Assembly (NCBI RefSeq): GCF_000017505.1
Contig: NC_009675.1
Coordinates: forward strand, 3,605,001 to 3,669,000
Length of the DNA stretch: 64,000 bases
Origin: Anaeromyxobacter sp. Fw109-5
GTDB lineage: Bacteria > Myxococcota > Myxococcia > Myxococcales > Anaeromyxobacteraceae
Direction: 5' to 3'
The notes under the pieces are model-generated. The model made no database searches and was not told the DNA's origin. It saw only the letters and a list, made by a program, of their open reading frames with translations. Shown piece by piece: positions 30,495-45,120 of the stretch (within the stretch, counting starts at the first letter, position 1; the number at the start of each line of letters is the position of its first letter). The translations under genes and the position numbers were made by a program.

Positions 30495-31085
30495 CTGGAC
30501 CTCCCCTCGAGCCACGCCCTGCGGTGCTCGAGCTCGCTCGACCGGGGGATCGCGCCACACGGGTATCGATCCACCAACGGTCGCTCGCGCCTCGCTCTCG
30601 CCCGCGCTCGACCATCCTGAGCACGCGCGCGCGACCGGACGACCCTCGTACCCGCCGTGACTCGCCGCCAGGATCGAACTCACCCGGGGTGACGCCTACA
30701 GGTGCACGCACCGCGTGCTCACGCGGCGGCGCGTAGGCGCGTCGTCGACCCCGAGGCGAACGTCCCCTGTCCTCACGACGCGGGCTCCGCGCCGTGGCGG
30801 ACCTCGACGCCGTCGATCGTCCACCGCGGCATCGGGCGGGTCGAGACGGGATCTCATTCGCGCTTTACCCAGGGTAATCACCGGATACAGCGATCGGTCG
30901 GGCCCCGAGGTCCGGCTTGCACGCCGCTCGGCGCGGACAGTACCTGTGCCCTCACCATACCGGAGTGACTCACGGTGGATGCGACCCGACGCGGAGCTTC
31001 GATGCGTTCTTGTCCATGCGTCGCGGGTCACGTTCCAGGTCGGAGTTGCAAGCGGGCCGGCTGCGCAGCCGCCAAGGGGGACGCG
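30495..31085. promoter_or_regulatory. long regulatory region upstream of the multicopper oxidase
   Basis: 591 bases with no supported gene. Two perfect 13-bp palindromes stand out: TCACCCGGGGTGA at 30680-30692 and TTACCCAGGGTAA at 30865-30877, both XXACCC-N-GGGTXX. The second lies in the least GC-rich stretch, about 210 bases before the oxidase ATG, and is the best operator candidate. Confidence 0.45.
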
Positions 31086-34000
31086 ATGAAGGGTCGTGGG
31101 GTGATCTTGCGTTTGGTGATCTCGCTGGCGCTCGCCTCGAGCATGAGCTCCGCATCCGCTCAGGCCCGCAAGGACAAGGACCGGCCCCGGATCACCCACG
31201 CCGACAGGGCCGCCGCCGCCGCCCGGGCGAAGGCGAAGGGGCTCGCCTCTGGCGCCGCGGCAGTGGCCGCCGCGGAGATGGCGATGGCGATGCCGGGCGA
31301 CCCGCCCCGCTACTACTCGCACCCGAACTACGCCAACAGCCCGCTGCCGGTCGTCAGCGGCGCGCTCGTCTCCGTCGGAAATCCGCTGGTCGACCGCGCC
31401 TACGCGACCGACTTCGCCGGCCCGGTCGGCGAGCTCGGGCAGGTCTTCGTGGTCATGCCCTCGGCGGTGCTTCCGGAGGGGTTGATCCAGAGCTTCCAGA
31501 CCTGGAACCAGGCCACGGCCGGAGCGAGCCCGACCCCGTCGGCCGGCGGCGTGTTCCACGCGTACGTCCTGCGGCCCACGGGCATTCCCAACGAGTACAC
31601 GGTCGCCTTCGACAGCGGGACGCTCACCGTGCCGGCCCTGGCCGATCCCACCGTCGGCGAGGTCGCGAAGTTCGACATGGTGGGCGGTATCGGCGTCCAG
31701 GCGGGTGACCTCCTCGCCTTCTACGGGCAGGGCATCCCCGTCGACACCTCCTCGGGCTCGGACGTCCTGAGCTACCCGGCCCCGACCGCGCCCTTGCAGG
31801 GCGCCACGATCACGCTCGGCAGCCTCGAGTATCCCATCTATCCCCAGGCGCGCACGTACTCGTTCGCCGCAGAGGTCGTCGACCTGTCCGGCACCAACGT
31901 CGCGATCACCGAGGGTATCCGCAAATTCGTCGACGGCCTGCCTGGCCTGGGTCCGGACGCGGCGAACAACCTGGGGCAGTTCATCCCCGTGGCCGTCCCC
32001 GAGCGCTGGCCCGCCACGGACACCGCGCCGGAGTCGGACTACTACGTCATCGAGCTCGTCGAGTACTCGGAGCAGATGCACTCGGACCTGCCTGAGACGA
32101 AGCTGCGCGGGTACCGGCAGGTCAACGCGCCCGGCGGCCCCACTCCCCCCCACTACCTGGGACCGATGATCGTGGCCCAGAAGAACCGGCCGGTCCGGAT
32201 CCTGTTCAGGAACTCCCTCCCGACCGGCGCGGGCGGGAACCTGTTCGTGCCGGTGGACACCACCGTGATGGGCTCCGGCATGACGCCAGCCGGCCACGAG
32301 ATGTGGCCGGCGGAGGAAGACCCGCAGAACCCGATGTGCAGCCAGCCCGGCAAGGAGATGATGGTCGCCTCGGGCCACTGCTTCGCGGACAACCGGGCCA
32401 CGCTGCACCTGCACGGCGGCATCTCGCCGTGGATCAGCGACGGCACGCCGCACCAGTGGGTCACGCCGGCTGGCGAGCTGACGGCCTATCCGGAGGGCGT
32501 GAGCGTCGTCGACGTGCCCGACATGCCGGCCCCCGGCTCGGGAGAGATGACCTTCTTCTACACGAACCAGCAGAGCGCGCGGCTGATGTTCTATCACGAC
32601 CACGCGTGGGGCATCACCCGGCTCAACGTCTACGCCGGTGAGGCTGCACCGTACGTGATCACCGACGACACCGAGAAGGCGCTCGTCGACAGCGGGATCA
32701 TCCCCGGCGCGGCGGACACTCTCCCGCTCGTCATCCAGGACAAGACCTTCGTGCCGAAGGCGGCGCAGCTCGCCTCGCAGGACGAGACCTGGGACGTCGC
32801 CCGCTGGGGCGGCGAGGGCAGCCTGTGGATGCCCCACGTGTACTCGCCGGCGCAGAACCCGGGCGACGCCTCCGGCGTGAACCAGTTCGGCCGCTGGGCG
32901 TACGGTCCGTGGTTCTGGCCGCCGACGACCAACGTCGAGAACGGCCCGATGCCCAACCCCTACTTCGACCCGGCCTGCGACCCCGAGCTGACGTGGTGCG
33001 AGCCGGCCGTGATGCCGGGGGTGCCGTACCTCTCGATGGGGATGGAGTCCTTCCAGGACACGCCCGTGGTGAACGGCACGGCGTACCCCACCCTCACGAT
33101 CGATCCGAAGCCCTACCGCCTGCGCGTCCTGAACGCCGCCAACGATCGCTTCTTCAACCTGTCGCTCTACAAGGCCGTCGACGCGAACGGCGCGCTCTGC
33201 GACACCGCCAACGCGACCCCGGCGCCGGAGCGCACCGGCGTCGCGTGCACCGAGGTGCTCCTGAACCCCGCCGAGGTGGCGGCCGCGCTCGACGACCCGG
33301 CGGGAGTCTTCCCGACGCCGGTGGCGGGCACGGAAGGCCCGGACTGGATCCAGATCGGCACCGAGGGCGGCTTCCTCCCCGCCCCGGTGGTCATCCCGCC
33401 GCACATCACGACGTGGGTGACGGACCCGACGGTGTTCAACGCGGGCAACGTGGACCAGCACTCGCTGCTGCTCGGCCCGGCCGAGCGCGCCGACGTGGTG
33501 GTCGACTTCTCGCAGTACGCGGGTCAGACGCTGATCCTCTACAACGACGCCCCCGCGGCGTTCCCGGCGCGCGATCCCCGCTACGACTACTACACCGGCA
33601 ACCCCGACCTGAGGGACACGGGCGGCGCGCCGTCCACGCTCCCCGGCTACGGCCCGAACACCCGCACCGTCATGCAGATCAAGGTGAGGCCGGGAGAGGG
33701 TCAGCCCTTCGACCTGGGCGGCCTGCAGGCGGCGTTCGCCCATAAGCCGGACGCCCCGGGCGTGTTCGAGAGCGGGCAGCACCCGATCATCGTCGGCCAG
33801 AGCGCCTACAACTCGGCCTACGGGAAGACGTTCCAGGCGAACGGTCCTTTCGCGGGCCTCGTGCAGATCTTCGACACCTCGCTCACCTTCGACACGCTCT
33901 CGGACGATCCGGCGAACCCGGGCACCCCGCTGAGGCTGACGATCCCCCTGCGCCCGAAGATGATCCAGGACGAGATGGGAGAGGCCTTCGAGCACGAGTA

Positions 34001-35294
34001 CGGGCGGATGAGCGGGTTCCTGGGGGTGGAGACGGCGAACGCGCAGGCGGGCCTGCAGAACATGATCCTGTACCCGTTCGCCTCCCCGCCGACCGAGCTC
34101 GTCGACGGGGTCGAGCTCCCGGGTTCGGCCCCCGCGCTGGAGGTGACTCCCATCGCCTCGGCCGACGACGGCACGCAGGTCTGGAAGATCACCCACAACG
34201 GCGTGGACACGCACCCCATCCACTTCCACCTGTACGAGGTGCAGCTCCTGAACCGCGTCGGGTGGGACGGCATCGTCCGCAAACCCGACCTGAACGAGCT
34301 CGGGTGGAAGGAGACCGTCCGCGTCAGCCCGCTCGAGGACACGGTCGTGGCGCTGCGGCCGATCATCCCGCACGTCCCCTTCGACCTGCCGAACAGCATC
34401 CGGCTGCTCGACCCATCCATGAACGAGGGCGACTACCTGGCGAACACCACCCTGCAGGAGTCGCTCGGGCTGCCCATCTTCGCCTTCGCCCCGAACGGCG
34501 AGCCGATCGACGTCGTCAACCACTACGTGAACTACGGCGCGGAGTACGTGTGGCACTGCCACATCCTCAGCCACGAGGAGATGGACATGATGCGCCCGCA
34601 GGCCGTGGCGCTCGCGCCCAGGGAGCCGACGGGGGTCACGTGGGCGCTCGCGGGGAGCGGCCGCAACACGCGGAACGTGGTGTCCTGGACGGACGCGTCG
34701 AAGAACGAGACGGGCTTCGTCGTCGAGCGCTCCTCCGACGGGACGAGCTGGACGCGGATCGCGACGGTGCAGTCGTCCGAGCTCGGCGTGGTGCCGTACG
34801 TCGAGACCGGCCTCGGGCCCGGAACCGGCACGGTCCGGACGTACGCCGACGTCATCGGGAACGACAGGACCCCCTACTCCTACCGGGTGTACGCCATCAA
34901 CACGGTGGGTGACACGTGGGACTACTCCAACCCGGCGCTGAACAGGCTCCCGCCGGGCGGCGGCTTCCCCGTCCTGACGGTCGACTCGAGGGGCATCACC
35001 ACCAGCAGCGTCGCCGCCCCGACGAACCTCACGGGGAGCGCGGCCGTGCGGAACCGCACCAGCGCGACGGTCACGCTGGGCTGGACGGACAACTCGACGG
35101 AGTCCGGGTTCCTGATCCAGCGGGCGGACAACGCCGGGTTCACGGTCGGCGTGGTGAACGCCACCGTGGCGGCCGACGTCACGACGTTCAAGCAGAACGT
35201 GGCGCGCGGCCGGACCTACTACTACCGGGTCCTCGCCTTCACCGACGCGCACCAGTCGGCGTGGTCGAACACGGCCACCGTCCCGACGCCGTGA
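31086..35294 (+). CDS. large secreted multicopper oxidase with two fibronectin III-like domains
   Basis: 1402 residues. A signal peptide (VILRLVISLALASSMSSASA) is followed by cupredoxin domains with all four copper-binding motifs: LHLHGG (His441, His443), FYHDHAWG (His504, His506), HPIHFHLY (His1043, His1046, His1048) and the type 1 signature WHCHILSHEEMDM (His1157, Cys1158, His1159, His1163, Met1168). Two fibronectin III-like domains (about 1180-1290 and 1310-1400) follow. Size and position are like the Geobacter outer-membrane oxidases OmpB/OmpC and Mn/Fe oxidases. It probably acts at or outside the outer membrane on metal ions. GGGGGAC precedes the ATG. Confidence 0.9.
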   Translation: MKGRGVILRLVISLALASSMSSASAQARKDKDRPRITHADRAAAAARAKAKGLASGAAAVAAAEMAMAMPGDPPRYYSHPNYANSPLPVVSGALVSVGNPLVDRAYATDFAGPVGELGQVFVVMPSAVLPEGLIQSFQTWNQATAGASPTPSAGGVFHAYVLRPTGIPNEYTVAFDSGTLTVPALADPTVGEVAKFDMVGGIGVQAGDLLAFYGQGIPVDTSSGSDVLSYPAPTAPLQGATITLGSLEYPIYPQARTYSFAAEVVDLSGTNVAITEGIRKFVDGLPGLGPDAANNLGQFIPVAVPERWPATDTAPESDYYVIELVEYSEQMHSDLPETKLRGYRQVNAPGGPTPPHYLGPMIVAQKNRPVRILFRNSLPTGAGGNLFVPVDTTVMGSGMTPAGHEMWPAEEDPQNPMCSQPGKEMMVASGHCFADNRATLHLHGGISPWISDGTPHQWVTPAGELTAYPEGVSVVDVPDMPAPGSGEMTFFYTNQQSARLMFYHDHAWGITRLNVYAGEAAPYVITDDTEKALVDSGIIPGAADTLPLVIQDKTFVPKAAQLASQDETWDVARWGGEGSLWMPHVYSPAQNPGDASGVNQFGRWAYGPWFWPPTTNVENGPMPNPYFDPACDPELTWCEPAVMPGVPYLSMGMESFQDTPVVNGTAYPTLTIDPKPYRLRVLNAANDRFFNLSLYKAVDANGALCDTANATPAPERTGVACTEVLLNPAEVAAALDDPAGVFPTPVAGTEGPDWIQIGTEGGFLPAPVVIPPHITTWVTDPTVFNAGNVDQHSLLLGPAERADVVVDFSQYAGQTLILYNDAPAAFPARDPRYDYYTGNPDLRDTGGAPSTLPGYGPNTRTVMQIKVRPGEGQPFDLGGLQAAFAHKPDAPGVFESGQHPIIVGQSAYNSAYGKTFQANGPFAGLVQIFDTSLTFDTLSDDPANPGTPLRLTIPLRPKMIQDEMGEAFEHEYGRMSGFLGVETANAQAGLQNMILYPFASPPTELVDGVELPGSAPALEVTPIASADDGTQVWKITHNGVDTHPIHFHLYEVQLLNRVGWDGIVRKPDLNELGWKETVRVSPLEDTVVALRPIIPHVPFDLPNSIRLLDPSMNEGDYLANTTLQESLGLPIFAFAPNGEPIDVVNHYVNYGAEYVWHCHILSHEEMDMMRPQAVALAPREPTGVTWALAGSGRNTRNVVSWTDASKNETGFVVERSSDGTSWTRIATVQSSELGVVPYVETGLGPGTGTVRTYADVIGNDRTPYSYRVYAINTVGDTWDYSNPALNRLPPGGGFPVLTVDSRGITTSSVAAPTNLTGSAAVRNRTSATVTLGWTDNSTESGFLIQRADNAGFTVGVVNATVAADVTTFKQNVARGRTYYYRVLAFTDAHQSAWSNTATVPTP

Positions 35295-35461: not shown

Positions 35462-35974
35462 ATGTCCGACCCGCGCCCGAAGTGCTCGCGCTCAGAGCGC
35501 CTCTCGCCGAGCCCCCTCCCCCCAGACCACGCAGCGACCTCGCTTGCCGGGCGCGTCCGGCGCCGGTATGCCGCCGCGCTCGTCGCGCTCGCGCTGCTCG
35601 GGCTCGCCTCCGCCTGCCGCGACGGCGGCGGCGCCCGCGACGAGAAGGCGTCGGGCGTGCGCCGCTACACCGTCCGCGGCGAGGTGGTGCGGCTCCCGGA
35701 GACGCCTGCCGGCGCGCGCCAGGTCGGGCTCCGCCACGAGGCCATCGACGACTTCGTGAACCAGGCCGGCGAGACCGTGGGGATGGGCTCCATGGTCATG
35801 TCGTTCGAGGCGGCCCCGGGCGTGTCGCTGGAGGACGTCCGCGTGGGCGACAAGGTCGAGATCCAGCTGGCGGTGGGGTGGTCGCCGCCGACCCTGCGCA
35901 TCGAGCAGCTCCGAAAGCTGCCCGCGGACACGGCGCTCGAGTTCCGGGAGGCCCGGGCGAAGCCCGCGCCGTAG
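35462..35974 (+). CDS. CusF-like copper-binding lipoprotein
   Basis: 170 residues. A long basic N-terminus leads to a hydrophobic segment ending LLGLASAC (lipid Cys52). The mature part has the CusF-type pattern: GEVVRLPE, RHEAIDDFVN, GMGSMVMSFEA and LEDVRVGDKVE, where His, Met and Met side chains would hold Cu(I). It probably buffers copper in the periplasm or supplies the multicopper oxidase, whose gene lies 167 bases upstream on the same strand beyond a terminator. The signal is unusually far from the start; no later start codon is in frame. Confidence 0.78.
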   Translation: MSDPRPKCSRSERLSPSPLPPDHAATSLAGRVRRRYAAALVALALLGLASACRDGGGARDEKASGVRRYTVRGEVVRLPETPAGARQVGLRHEAIDDFVNQAGETVGMGSMVMSFEAAPGVSLEDVRVGDKVEIQLAVGWSPPTLRIEQLRKLPADTALEFREARAKPAP

Positions 35975-36135: not shown

Positions 36136-38886
36136 CTAGAGGCAGGCGGCCGCGCAGGCCGCCGCCGGCGTCGCGGCCTTCAGGGCCTCGTCCGTCGCCT
36201 GCAGCACCTCGAAGACGAACGTCGGGTTGTGGAGGGAGCTCGAGCCGTCGTTCACGAGCCCGAGGTTCCACAGCGCGCGCGAGAGCACGCCGTCCACCGC
36301 AGCGAGGGTGACCGTACCGGTCGCATCCTTCAGGGTCGAGGCTGCGCCGACCACCGTCGAGGTCGTGACCGTACCGGACGGGAAGGTGACGGCGATGGGC
36401 GCGGTCAAGTTGAACACGATGCTCGTCCCGCTCACGCCGATGCTCTCGATGCTCGCGAGCGGTAGGACGAACGGCGTGCCGCTCGTGCGGCTCTGGACCG
36501 GCGTCACGGTGAACCCCGTCGCGCCGACGGAGGCCGTGAGCGCCTCGCCCAGCTGGGCGATGGCGCTCGCGCGCGCCGCCACGTAGGCGGCCTCGATCGC
36601 CTCGCCGTTCACCTCTTCACCGTGGCACTCCTTGCAGATCGAGCTGGCCATGTTCACGCCGTCGTCGTTCGTGAAGCCGAACGTGTGGTTCGTCATCGTG
36701 TAGCGGAGCCCCTCGACGGCCGTCTTCATGTGGCAGCCGACGCAGGTCTCGGACACCGCGGCGTGGCCCGAGACCATGTAGCCGTTGGCGTCGCCGATGA
36801 AGTACGCGTTCATGCCCATCAGCACCTCGGCCTGGGTCGGCGCGTGCGGCGTCTCGAAGCTCGGCAGGGCGATGTCGTCGCCTCGCAGGCCGCGCCGGCC
36901 GTTGTGACAGGTCATGCAGAGCGCGCCCGTGCCGGCGCCCGACACGGTGAACCCTGCGGCGACGTAGACGGGCGCCTTCCCGTCGATGCGGACGGTCGTG
37001 GAGTGGGAGTCGTGGCACGCGGCGCAGGTCTGCGCCTCGACGGTGCTCGGGGTCGCGCCGCTGTCGACCGTGCCCTGCGTGGTGTCCTCGGCGTACTTCA
37101 CGAAGCCCTGCGCGGAGTGGCAGCGGGCGCAGCTGGAGTTGGCGCGGGTGCCGGTCGCCTCGGCGAGGGCGAGGCCGGTGTTCGCATGGCCCGACCGGCG
37201 CCACAGCGCGACGCGGTCATGGTTCGTCGGACGATCGTGGCACACCGCGCAGGCGGCCACGTTGTACTCGCCGACCGGCTTCGAGCCGCCGTTCGCCACG
37301 TGACGGCCGAGCGGGCCGTGGCAGCTCTCGCACTGCATGCCGGCATAGGCCCTCGCCGCGAGCGGGATGGCGTCCCAGGCGCCGTACTGGGGCGCGGGAG
37401 TGACGAGGTCGTAGGCCGGATCGCCGGTGAGGCCGGTGAACACCTTCGTGAGGTCCGGGAACGTCCAGCCCGCGGCCTTGGCGACGTCGTCGAAGCCGTC
37501 GTTCTGGAGCGCGGTGTTGTAGCCGGTGGTGTGGCAGGACACGCAGCTCGCGCTGTAGTGCGTCCCCTCCGCGCCCGTCATGCCGAACTCGAACGTGGTC
37601 ATCGCGCCGGGCTCGGCCCAGAAGACCGTCGGGTTCGCGGTGGGCGCCGGGATGGGCTCGCCGTCGGGGCCGGTCTTCCACACGAGCACGCCGTTCGCGT
37701 CGTACTCCATGTACTTGAAGAAGTGGTTCCCGTGCGCGGAGTTGTTCCACTTCTTGAAGGTGGTCTCCATCCTGGCGAGCTTCTCGGCGCTCATGAGGTA
37801 CTCGTGGCAGCCGCCGCAGCTGGGGCTCGAGCTGACGTAGTTCGAGACGGCGGCGCGCAGCCCGTCGAACCGGTAGACGCCCGGGACGTCGGCGACGAAC
37901 CAGGGGAACTCGGAGTCGGCGCCGTTCAGGACGGCGTTCGAGCCGAGCGGCTTCTCGACGAAGGCGAGCGCGGTGGTGTTGCCCGGGACGCTGGCGATGA
38001 CGAGCGTGCCCGTCGGGATCGAGCGCGTCACCAGGTCGGTCGAGTCGTAGATCGCGCCGTTGGCCTGGGCGAGCGTCGCCGGGACCACCGCCACCGTCAC
38101 CTTCGCCTCGAAGCCCATCTGGTCCTTCACGACGACGTCGAAGTTGTAGGTCATCTCGGTGAGCTGGCGCGCGCTGACGCCGAGGAACTCGGAGCGGAAC
38201 GGCTCCCCGTCCTCGGTCAGCGACGGCCCGAAGCCGATCACCTTCTCGTCGGCGGCGACGATGTCGGCGAGGGCGCCCGTGGTGAACTTCGGGGCCGCCA
38301 CGTCGTTCGCGGAGAGCGTGACCGTCGTCGGGTTCGCGGCCCGCGGCGTCCACTTGTACGCGTACGGCGGCGTTCCGCCGCTCACCGTCACCCCGAGCGT
38401 GACCTCACGCTCGAAGCCGGCGGGGTTCGGCATCGCCGCGGCCTTCAGGACGATCGGGCTGATCGCCGTGAGCTCGCGGTTCAGGATGAACTCCTTGCCG
38501 GCGACGATGGAGACGTTCGGCACCTCGAGCTTCTGGAAGCCGTTGCCCGAGAACACGATCGTGTAGACGCCGATGGGGCAGCCCGAGCCGAGCTCGTACT
38601 CGCCGTTGGCGTCCGAGGTCGTCACGCCGCACCAGTCCGGGACGCTCGTGACGACGACGTTCGTCGCCGGGTACTCGACGCCCGCCACCTTGAACGTCAG
38701 CCGGCCCATCACCCCGCCCGTCGACCTGCCATCGGCACCGTCCTGACCCGACGATCCCGGCGTCCCCGGCGCGCCGTCCCGGCCGTCCTGCCCGTCCCGA
38801 CCGTCCTTCCCGTTGGACCCGCCGGAACAGGCGGCGAGCGCGACGACCATGAGCAGCGACAGCCCGCGACACTTCCTCGCATGCAT
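36136..38886 (-). CDS. nonaheme lipoprotein cytochrome c with collagen-like stalk
   Basis: 916 residues. A lipoprotein signal (VVALAACSGG) is followed at once by nine Gly-X-Y triplets (GKDGRDGQDGRDGAPG and onward to GADG, residues about 26-53). Beta-rich domains fill residues 60-340. Nine CXXCH motifs lie between about 356 and 753 (CGGCH, CVSCH, CESCH, CAVCH, CARCH, CAACH, CMTCH, CVGCH, CKECH), and a C-terminal beta-rich segment ends the protein. It is likely an outer-surface cytochrome passing electrons to minerals or to the neighbouring copper oxidase. The collagen-like stalk would hold the heme domain away from the membrane. Confidence 0.9.
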   Translation of the reverse strand: MHARKCRGLSLLMVVALAACSGGSNGKDGRDGQDGRDGAPGTPGSSGQDGADGRSTGGVMGRLTFKVAGVEYPATNVVVTSVPDWCGVTTSDANGEYELGSGCPIGVYTIVFSGNGFQKLEVPNVSIVAGKEFILNRELTAISPIVLKAAAMPNPAGFEREVTLGVTVSGGTPPYAYKWTPRAANPTTVTLSANDVAAPKFTTGALADIVAADEKVIGFGPSLTEDGEPFRSEFLGVSARQLTEMTYNFDVVVKDQMGFEAKVTVAVVPATLAQANGAIYDSTDLVTRSIPTGTLVIASVPGNTTALAFVEKPLGSNAVLNGADSEFPWFVADVPGVYRFDGLRAAVSNYVSSSPSCGGCHEYLMSAEKLARMETTFKKWNNSAHGNHFFKYMEYDANGVLVWKTGPDGEPIPAPTANPTVFWAEPGAMTTFEFGMTGAEGTHYSASCVSCHTTGYNTALQNDGFDDVAKAAGWTFPDLTKVFTGLTGDPAYDLVTPAPQYGAWDAIPLAARAYAGMQCESCHGPLGRHVANGGSKPVGEYNVAACAVCHDRPTNHDRVALWRRSGHANTGLALAEATGTRANSSCARCHSAQGFVKYAEDTTQGTVDSGATPSTVEAQTCAACHDSHSTTVRIDGKAPVYVAAGFTVSGAGTGALCMTCHNGRRGLRGDDIALPSFETPHAPTQAEVLMGMNAYFIGDANGYMVSGHAAVSETCVGCHMKTAVEGLRYTMTNHTFGFTNDDGVNMASSICKECHGEEVNGEAIEAAYVAARASAIAQLGEALTASVGATGFTVTPVQSRTSGTPFVLPLASIESIGVSGTSIVFNLTAPIAVTFPSGTVTTSTVVGAASTLKDATGTVTLAAVDGVLSRALWNLGLVNDGSSSLHNPTFVFEVLQATDEALKAATPAAACAAACL

Positions 38887-44050: not shown

Positions 44051-44142
44051 TCGGAGCGTTCCAGCCGGCGTGGACCCGATGACCCACCGTCCCGCCACGC
44101 TTCACGGTGGCAGCGGGGCGTCGCGCTCGATGGGGAGAGGTC

Positions 44143-45120
44143 ATGCGACTGCTCGCGAAGTTCAGCCTCATCTTCGTGGTGGTGTTCGGCCTCGGCCTCG
44201 GCGCGGCCGCCTACCTGTTCTACGGTCTCCTCCAGCGCAACGCGCGCGATCAGGTGCTCCACAACGCGCAGCTGATGATGGACACGGCCCTGGCCATGCG
44301 GTCCTACACCATCAAGCAGGTCAAGCCGGCCATCAACGACAGCTTCAAGGAGCAGGGGAAGCAGAGCAGCCGCGACGACGACGTGTTCCGCGAGCTCTGC
44401 GCCAAGCGCGGCTTCGCGGCGAAGCGCGTGTTCCGGCCGCAGACCGTCCCCGCCTACTCGGCCACCGAGATGTTCATGGAGCTCCGCAAGAAATACCCGG
44501 ACTACCTCTACAAGGAGGCGACCCTCAACCCGACGAACCCGCGCAACCGGGCCCTCGACTGGGAGGAGGACCTCATCAAGAACTTCAAGAACCGCCCCGA
44601 GATGACCGTGTTCGGCGGCGAGCGCGACACGCCGCTCGGGCGGGCGCTCTACCTCGCGAAGCCCATGCGCGTGCAGTCCGATTGCCTCGAGTGCCACTCG
44701 GTCCCGAGCGCGGCGCCCAAGGAGATGATCGAGCTGTACGGACCCAACAACGGCTTCGGGTGGACGGACGGAGACGTGGTCGCGGCGCAGATCATCTCGG
44801 TGCCGGTCTCGGTGCCGGTGCAGATGGCGAACCACGCCTTCCGCCGCCTGATCCTCTCGCTCGTCGCGGTCGGCGTCCTCACGCTGATCGTCCTCGACGC
44901 GCTGCTCTACGTCACCGTGATCCGGCCGGTGAGCCAGTTCGCGGCCCGCGCCGACGAGATCAGCAAGGGCCAGCTCGACGTGCCCGAGCTGCCGGTGCGA
45001 GGCAAGGACGAGATCTCGGTCCTCGCGGCCGCCTTCAACCGGATGCACCGCAGCGTGGTCGCCGCGATGAGGATGCTCGAGGACGAGCCGGACCGCACCC
45101 GCGATCCGGACGACGAGTAG
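44143..45120 (+). CDS. membrane heme sensor: DUF3365 domain plus HAMP, no output domain
   Basis: 325 residues. Helix one (FSLIFVVVFGLGLGAAAYLF) is followed by a periplasmic DUF3365/Tll0287-type domain (about 30-225) with one c-type heme motif, CLECH at 181-185, then helix two (LILSLVAVGVLTLIVLDALLY) and a HAMP-like segment (FAARADEISKGQLDVPELP). The protein ends soon after HAMP; no kinase, cyclase or methyl-accepting domain follows. It probably senses redox state or a gas and signals through a partner. It is convergent with the ECF sigma gene, 70 bases away. GGGGAGAGG precedes the ATG. Confidence 0.85.
   Translation: MRLLAKFSLIFVVVFGLGLGAAAYLFYGLLQRNARDQVLHNAQLMMDTALAMRSYTIKQVKPAINDSFKEQGKQSSRDDDVFRELCAKRGFAAKRVFRPQTVPAYSATEMFMELRKKYPDYLYKEATLNPTNPRNRALDWEEDLIKNFKNRPEMTVFGGERDTPLGRALYLAKPMRVQSDCLECHSVPSAAPKEMIELYGPNNGFGWTDGDVVAAQIISVPVSVPVQMANHAFRRLILSLVAVGVLTLIVLDALLYVTVIRPVSQFAARADEISKGQLDVPELPVRGKDEISVLAAAFNRMHRSVVAAMRMLEDEPDRTRDPDDE

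Follow-up and report, generated by a model that had tools for sequence, protein, structure and literature searches.

The way in which surface cytochromes span the distance from the outer membrane to a mineral is an unsettled question in extracellular electron transfer. One gene in a 64,000-nucleotide stretch of the Anaeromyxobacter sp. Fw109-5 genome (here called the window) raises it in a specific form: a collagen-like Gly-X-Y repeat stands between the lipid-attachment Cys and a nine-heme cytochrome. Is this repeat a stalk, and would it join three chains or serve a single one? Stalks of this collagen type, present at different lengths on dozens of multiheme lipoproteins, would be a testable device for reach.

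Layout of the gene and its protein

The gene is present as a single copy in the 5,277,990-bp, one-contig genome, and its closest named homologues are those of Anaeromyxobacter terrae and A. soli. The features are as follows.

36136..38886, minus strand: coding sequence of the nine-heme lipoprotein, 916 aa, stop codon included; third-position GC (GC3) 0.97
38830..38886, minus strand: signal peptide, residues 1 to 19, lipobox end LAA↓C (from the sequence)
38827..38829, minus strand: lipid-attachment Cys20 (from the sequence; invariant in the homologue alignment)
38722..38820, minus strand: collagen-like stalk, residues 23 to 55, 11 unbroken Gly-X-Y triplets (from alignment, shuffles, and codon comparison)
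38479..38697, minus strand: carboxypeptidase-regulatory-like beta domain (spacer), residues 64 to 136 (Pfam PF13620, 26.4 bits)
36622..37818, minus strand: nine-heme region, residues 357 to 755, from first to last CXXCH, MtrC domain II/IV-like (PF22113, 56.6 bits)

The GC3 is the value expected of genes here, and we therefore take the open reading frame to be a real gene. The signal peptide and the lipobox with its invariant Cys are those expected of a surface lipoprotein cytochrome. The nine CXXCH motifs lie at C357, 448, 519, 546, 586, 621, 657, 715, and 751. The score of this region against PF22113 (MtrC/MtrF domain II/IV) was above the gathering cutoff of 30, and cytochrome c7-like stretches were also matched in Pfam, whereas the score against the OmcA/MtrC decaheme model was far below the curated cutoff (TIGR03507, 22.3 versus 209.3 bits), the model calling for ten CXXCH motifs. 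The protein is thus MtrC-like in its heme part without being a formal TIGR03507 member: it shares the domain II/IV heme similarity of the OmcA/MtrC family and departs from it in having nine hemes rather than ten, 11 triplets, and a carboxypeptidase-regulatory-like spacer. The PF13620 score of the spacer was below the cutoff of 32.3; the A. soli homologue and the homologue L003 scored above it. When the whole protein was compared with the PDB, only weak matches were obtained, to the heme region and the beta domain. AlphaFold2 monomer models were poor: the mean pLDDT was 36 for the whole protein and 42 for a separate model of residues 19 to 350, with about 30 in the stalk, and the pLDDT reached about 75 in the carboxypeptidase-regulatory-like domain alone.

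Conservation of the Gly-X-Y repeat

Alignment of homologues fixed the register of the repeat as C20-S-G followed, from G23 to S55, by GSN GKD GRD GQD GRD GAP GTP GSS GQD GAD GRS. A sequence-only reading of this DNA had described nine triplets right after the lipid Cys; the repeat is real, but it numbers 11 triplets and starts three residues behind the Cys. When the first 40 residues of the mature protein were shuffled 200,000 times, a run of 11 never arose, and the best run, of 10, arose twice.

We then compared 14 homologues with intact N termini, which were recruited by whole-protein similarity, stalk included, and each of which also matches over the body of the protein. L004 and L051/L192, which start at a contig edge without the N terminus, were left out of this count. 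All 14 carry 8 to 19 triplets behind the lipobox. The run is unbroken from its first Gly in 13 of them, and the remaining one, L190, has an irregular stretch ahead of its run. The only invariant columns of the N-terminal alignment were Met1, the lipid Cys, and every third Gly; the start C-[ST]-G-x-x-G was near constant, and the content of X and Y ranged from GKD/GQD to GPT/GAT/GPA. When the stalk codons of the target were compared with those of A. terrae and A. soli, silent differences were present in 10 of the 11 Gly codons, and residue changes were present in none of the 11, compared with 10 of the 22 X and Y codons (Fisher's exact test, calculated by hand, P value of about 0.007). These comparisons indicate that the Gly periodicity is under purifying selection while X and Y drift. 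The earlier reading had proposed a collagen-type repeat joined to a multiheme lipoprotein, and had named absence or loss of periodicity in orthologues as the finding that would speak against it. Given the codon comparison and the periodic repeat in 14 of 14 intact homologues, the proposal stands on this point.

Distribution across cytochromes and other lipoproteins

The same reading had suggested looking for the stalk on other cytochromes of the genome, and the search found it, again with 11 triplets, on a protein of 785 aa with ten CXXCH motifs (L023:3781-6138), which is of the OmcA/MtrC type (TIGR03507, 139.5 bits). Other lipoprotein multihemes of this genome have poly-Gly or acidic tethers. 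The genome also holds a 2,092-aa open frame with 46 CXXCH motifs, a very large multiheme cytochrome (L075:6194-12469, minus strand).

A profile of the N terminus matched 23 of 24 Anaeromyxobacteraceae genomes, and strong matches to the stalk profile were found in 67 of 195 genomes of the phylum. We collected 67 distinct proteins with a lipobox and Gly-X-Y, of which 19 lack hemes and 48 have multiple CXXCH motifs, usually nine or ten in the complete ones. Nearly all of the roughly 48 stalked multiheme cytochromes come from 24 related genomes. This set of 48 was picked by a regular expression for the stalk itself, so our statements on conservation rest on the 14 similarity-recruited homologues and the codon test. 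Pro occupies 29% of X and 10% of Y over the 556 cytochrome triplets, with Thr, Asp, and Asn in Y; by composition, this X/Y asymmetry is what is expected of collagens.

Thirty OmcA/MtrC loci picked by TIGR03507 were sorted by hand into about 17 with Gly-X-Y, about 7 with poly-Gly, and the rest with other or unclear tethers. As judged from these sequences, replacement of Gly-X-Y by poly-Gly is a natural swap of tether type within one family. Since poly-Gly, acidic, and other tethers occur in relatives, the exact Gly-X-Y repeat is dispensable for such cytochromes. OmcA/MtrC cytochromes with a long run of consecutive Gly residues in place of Gly-X-Y are L069:2171-4483 (minus strand), L161, L168, L170, and L181.

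Non-heme lipoproteins in which a lipobox is followed by Gly-X-Y occur in myxobacteria (L194 to L200) and also in Bacteroidales (see also L005 and L006), and in aerobic myxobacteria most of the stalked proteins examined were of this non-heme kind. Many non-heme lipoproteins thus bear the same tether, and it is therefore a general module, not tied to electron transfer. Gly-X-Y comes directly behind the lipobox in the myxobacterial proteins, whereas a coiled-coil-looking segment separates it from the lipid in those of Bacteroidales. L194 to L200, L205, and L207 are about 600 to 800 aa long, several of them alike, with a tether of 10 to 16 triplets behind the Cys.

A lipobox followed by a Gly-X-Y run is also seen in Shewanella, with four triplets in S. 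oneidensis MtrC (7o7g), five in MtrF (3pmq), and four behind the lipid Cys of S. baltica MtrC (6r2q_C). The stalk profile retrieved Shewanella MtrC/MtrF from the PDB with E values of 6e-5 to 4e-4. Bacterial collagen-like proteins such as Scl1/Scl2, BclA, Bucl, and Lcl share a conserved, unbroken Gly-X-Y run with the target; its stalk is short and Pro-poor in comparison, and it has no known trimerizing head and a multiheme cytochrome head instead.

Long-stalked relatives

At least four multiheme cytochromes of one myxococcotal genome, G034, carry 36 to 50 triplets (L209, L210, L211, and L212). The longest run, in L209:294-3221 (plus strand), consists of 50 perfect triplets behind the lipid Cys with Pro at 56% of X, and its DNA is a tandem repeat of a 27-bp (9-aa) unit. 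The Pfam Collagen model (PF01391, cutoff of 27.2 bits) was passed by L003 (35.4 bits), L209 (76.3 bits), and L211 (50.7 bits). With its Collagen match and a PF22113 match of 133 bits in one protein, L209 is the clearest fusion of collagen and OmcA/MtrC among the sequences examined. The long-stalked cytochromes gave significant matches to Scl/Lcl/Collagen and have Pro in X and Thr in Y. L209 to L212 are better suited than the target to tests for a triple helix, and we think that relatives with 20 to 50 triplets probably trimerize.

Weighing the explanations

We find it fairly probable that the target is a surface multiheme lipoprotein with a collagen-type stand-off stalk, and the best reading of the comparisons is that this stalk would be a variant of the MtrC/OmcA tether. 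The trimer and the single chain are both versions of such a stalk, and our confidences in them overlap with that in the stalk as a whole. Were the protein a collagen trimer, three chains would be wound into one rigid triple-helical stalk with 27 hemes per surface unit. A perfect Gly-X-Y run conserved while X and Y are free would fit this, as would the collagen-like X/Y asymmetry across the stalk class and the long Pro-rich stalks that OmcA/MtrC cytochromes carry, with as many as 50 triplets and scores above the Collagen cutoff; for the class, the asymmetry, the lack of interruptions, and these long members speak for a triple helix or at least make one possible. The target itself is a poorer candidate. 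Of its 33 stalk residues, 2 are Pro, neither of them at an X position, compared with about 20 to 40% Pro in known bacterial collagens (PMC4565658), and the protein scores 16.5 bits against the Collagen cutoff of 27.2. The sequence-only reading had taken the Lys/Arg-Asp pairs to favor a triple helix, a claim that the order of the charges does not support. Stabilization is known for Lys-Gly-Asp/Glu, in which Lys takes the Y place and the acidic residue the X place of the following triplet; other charged placements are mostly unfavorable, Arg in Y excepted, and zwitterionic (DKG)10 forms no stable homotrimer (PMC7824840). In the target, the basic residues stand at X and Asp at Y, and [KR]G[DE] is absent. 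The low Pro content and this placement of charges thus make for poor triple-helix odds. In addition, a Pfam search recognized no trimerization domain in the target, and the 6r2q complex was deposited with one S. baltica MtrC chain, so that a short Gly-X-Y run of four triplets does not by itself imply trimers. We think that the short, Pro-poor target stalk would trimerize marginally or not at all, and we regard the trimer as doubtful for this protein. Widened to a Myxococcota class of lipid-anchored OmcA/MtrC-type and nine-heme cytochromes, in which N-terminal collagen helices of 8 to 50 triplets would form trimers holding 27 to 30 hemes 7 to 43 nm off the membrane, the idea is one that we put forward tentatively.

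If the cytochrome is instead a monomer and the repeat its hydrophilic linker, polyproline-II-like and with no triple helix, then the low Pro content of the target is accounted for, as is the substitution of poly-Gly tethers in close relatives. MtrC is a single subunit of MtrCAB, and MtrC and MtrF carry their four to five triplets all the same. An exact period of three would be superfluous in a loose linker, yet 13 of the 14 homologues are unbroken from the first Gly, and the stalks of close orthologues show no replacement of Gly; the X/Y asymmetry and the extension to 50 triplets are likewise hard to reconcile with it. On this single-chain linker we are nearly evenly divided, leaning slightly against. 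The near-constant C-[ST]-G-x-x-G, found at the start of unrelated non-heme lipoproteins too, could mean that export machinery reads the residues behind the Cys and that Gly-X-Y is mainly a sorting label, but this would leave 8 to 50 triplets, and Gly residues conserved along the whole run, unexplained, and cytochromes with other tethers exist; a surface-export signal is therefore an improbable main role. Least credible of all is that the repeat is neutral low-complexity DNA produced by GC-rich slippage. A weak 9/18-bp repeat seen over 40 bases fits slippage, whereas the divergence of the Gly codons by silent changes alone does not, and distant homologues (31 to 44% identity) retain the period of three with different X and Y.

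Proposed role of the stalk

On the stand-off reading, the N-terminal lipid would hold the cytochrome at the outer membrane, where it is predicted to be exposed at the surface. Collagen rises 0.29 nm per residue, and the 11-triplet spacer between lipid and protein would accordingly measure about 9 nm if triple-helical, with the beta domains after the stalk extending the reach. Such a spacer would keep the heme domain clear of the membrane and carry it through the surface layer, allowing contact with minerals or other cytochromes. The position of the stalk and the selection on it make a stand-off role the most likely one; we infer this role, the surface location, and electron transfer from sequence comparison. 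A puzzle follows, in that a rigid stalk puts the hemes far from a porin conduit. The stalk has no heme, so electrons would have to hop in from neighboring surface cytochromes or be picked up by the head swinging back. Since a stretched heme-free stalk would part the head from the porin conduit, reach or relay would be a more natural role than conduit.

The cytochrome family and the bacterial collagens are each already known. Our search, which covered open-access literature and left subscription papers mostly outside, found no report joining collagen-like sequences with multiheme cytochromes. The stalk would link bacterial collagens with respiration, a link of which that literature yielded no description.

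Genomic neighborhood

Two copper-related genes adjoin the cytochrome gene.

30975-35294, plus strand: multicopper oxidase
35462-35974, plus strand: CusF-like protein

The sequence-only reading had remarked on a copper oxidase and a copper chaperone beside the cytochrome. They do adjoin it, but both are transcribed convergently to the cytochrome gene and therefore share no operon with it, and neither multicopper oxidase nor CusF turned up in the 10-kb flanks of the orthologues in A. terrae and A. soli (L001 to L004 flanks searched), which have different neighbors in common. A functional link to the copper oxidase was rejected for its absence from these flanks. No second gene with more than one CXXCH was found among the genes called between 20 and 56 kb of the window, and hence no MtrA-like multiheme gene lies beside the cytochrome within that range, unlike in a porin-cytochrome conduit of the MtrCAB type. 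Taken together, the convergence, the missing copper genes near orthologues, and the lack of a multiheme neighbor in that range make the cytochrome gene look free-standing.

The multicopper oxidase is large (about 1,400 aa) with a C-terminal fibronectin type III-like part, and its best NCBIfam resemblance, far below the cutoffs, is to PhsA/CueO. Farther along, a gene at 44107-45120 (plus strand) encodes a Tll0287-like sensor domain with one CXXCH-like motif and a HAMP domain, with no kinase domain detected in it; this gene is conserved near the A. terrae orthologue.
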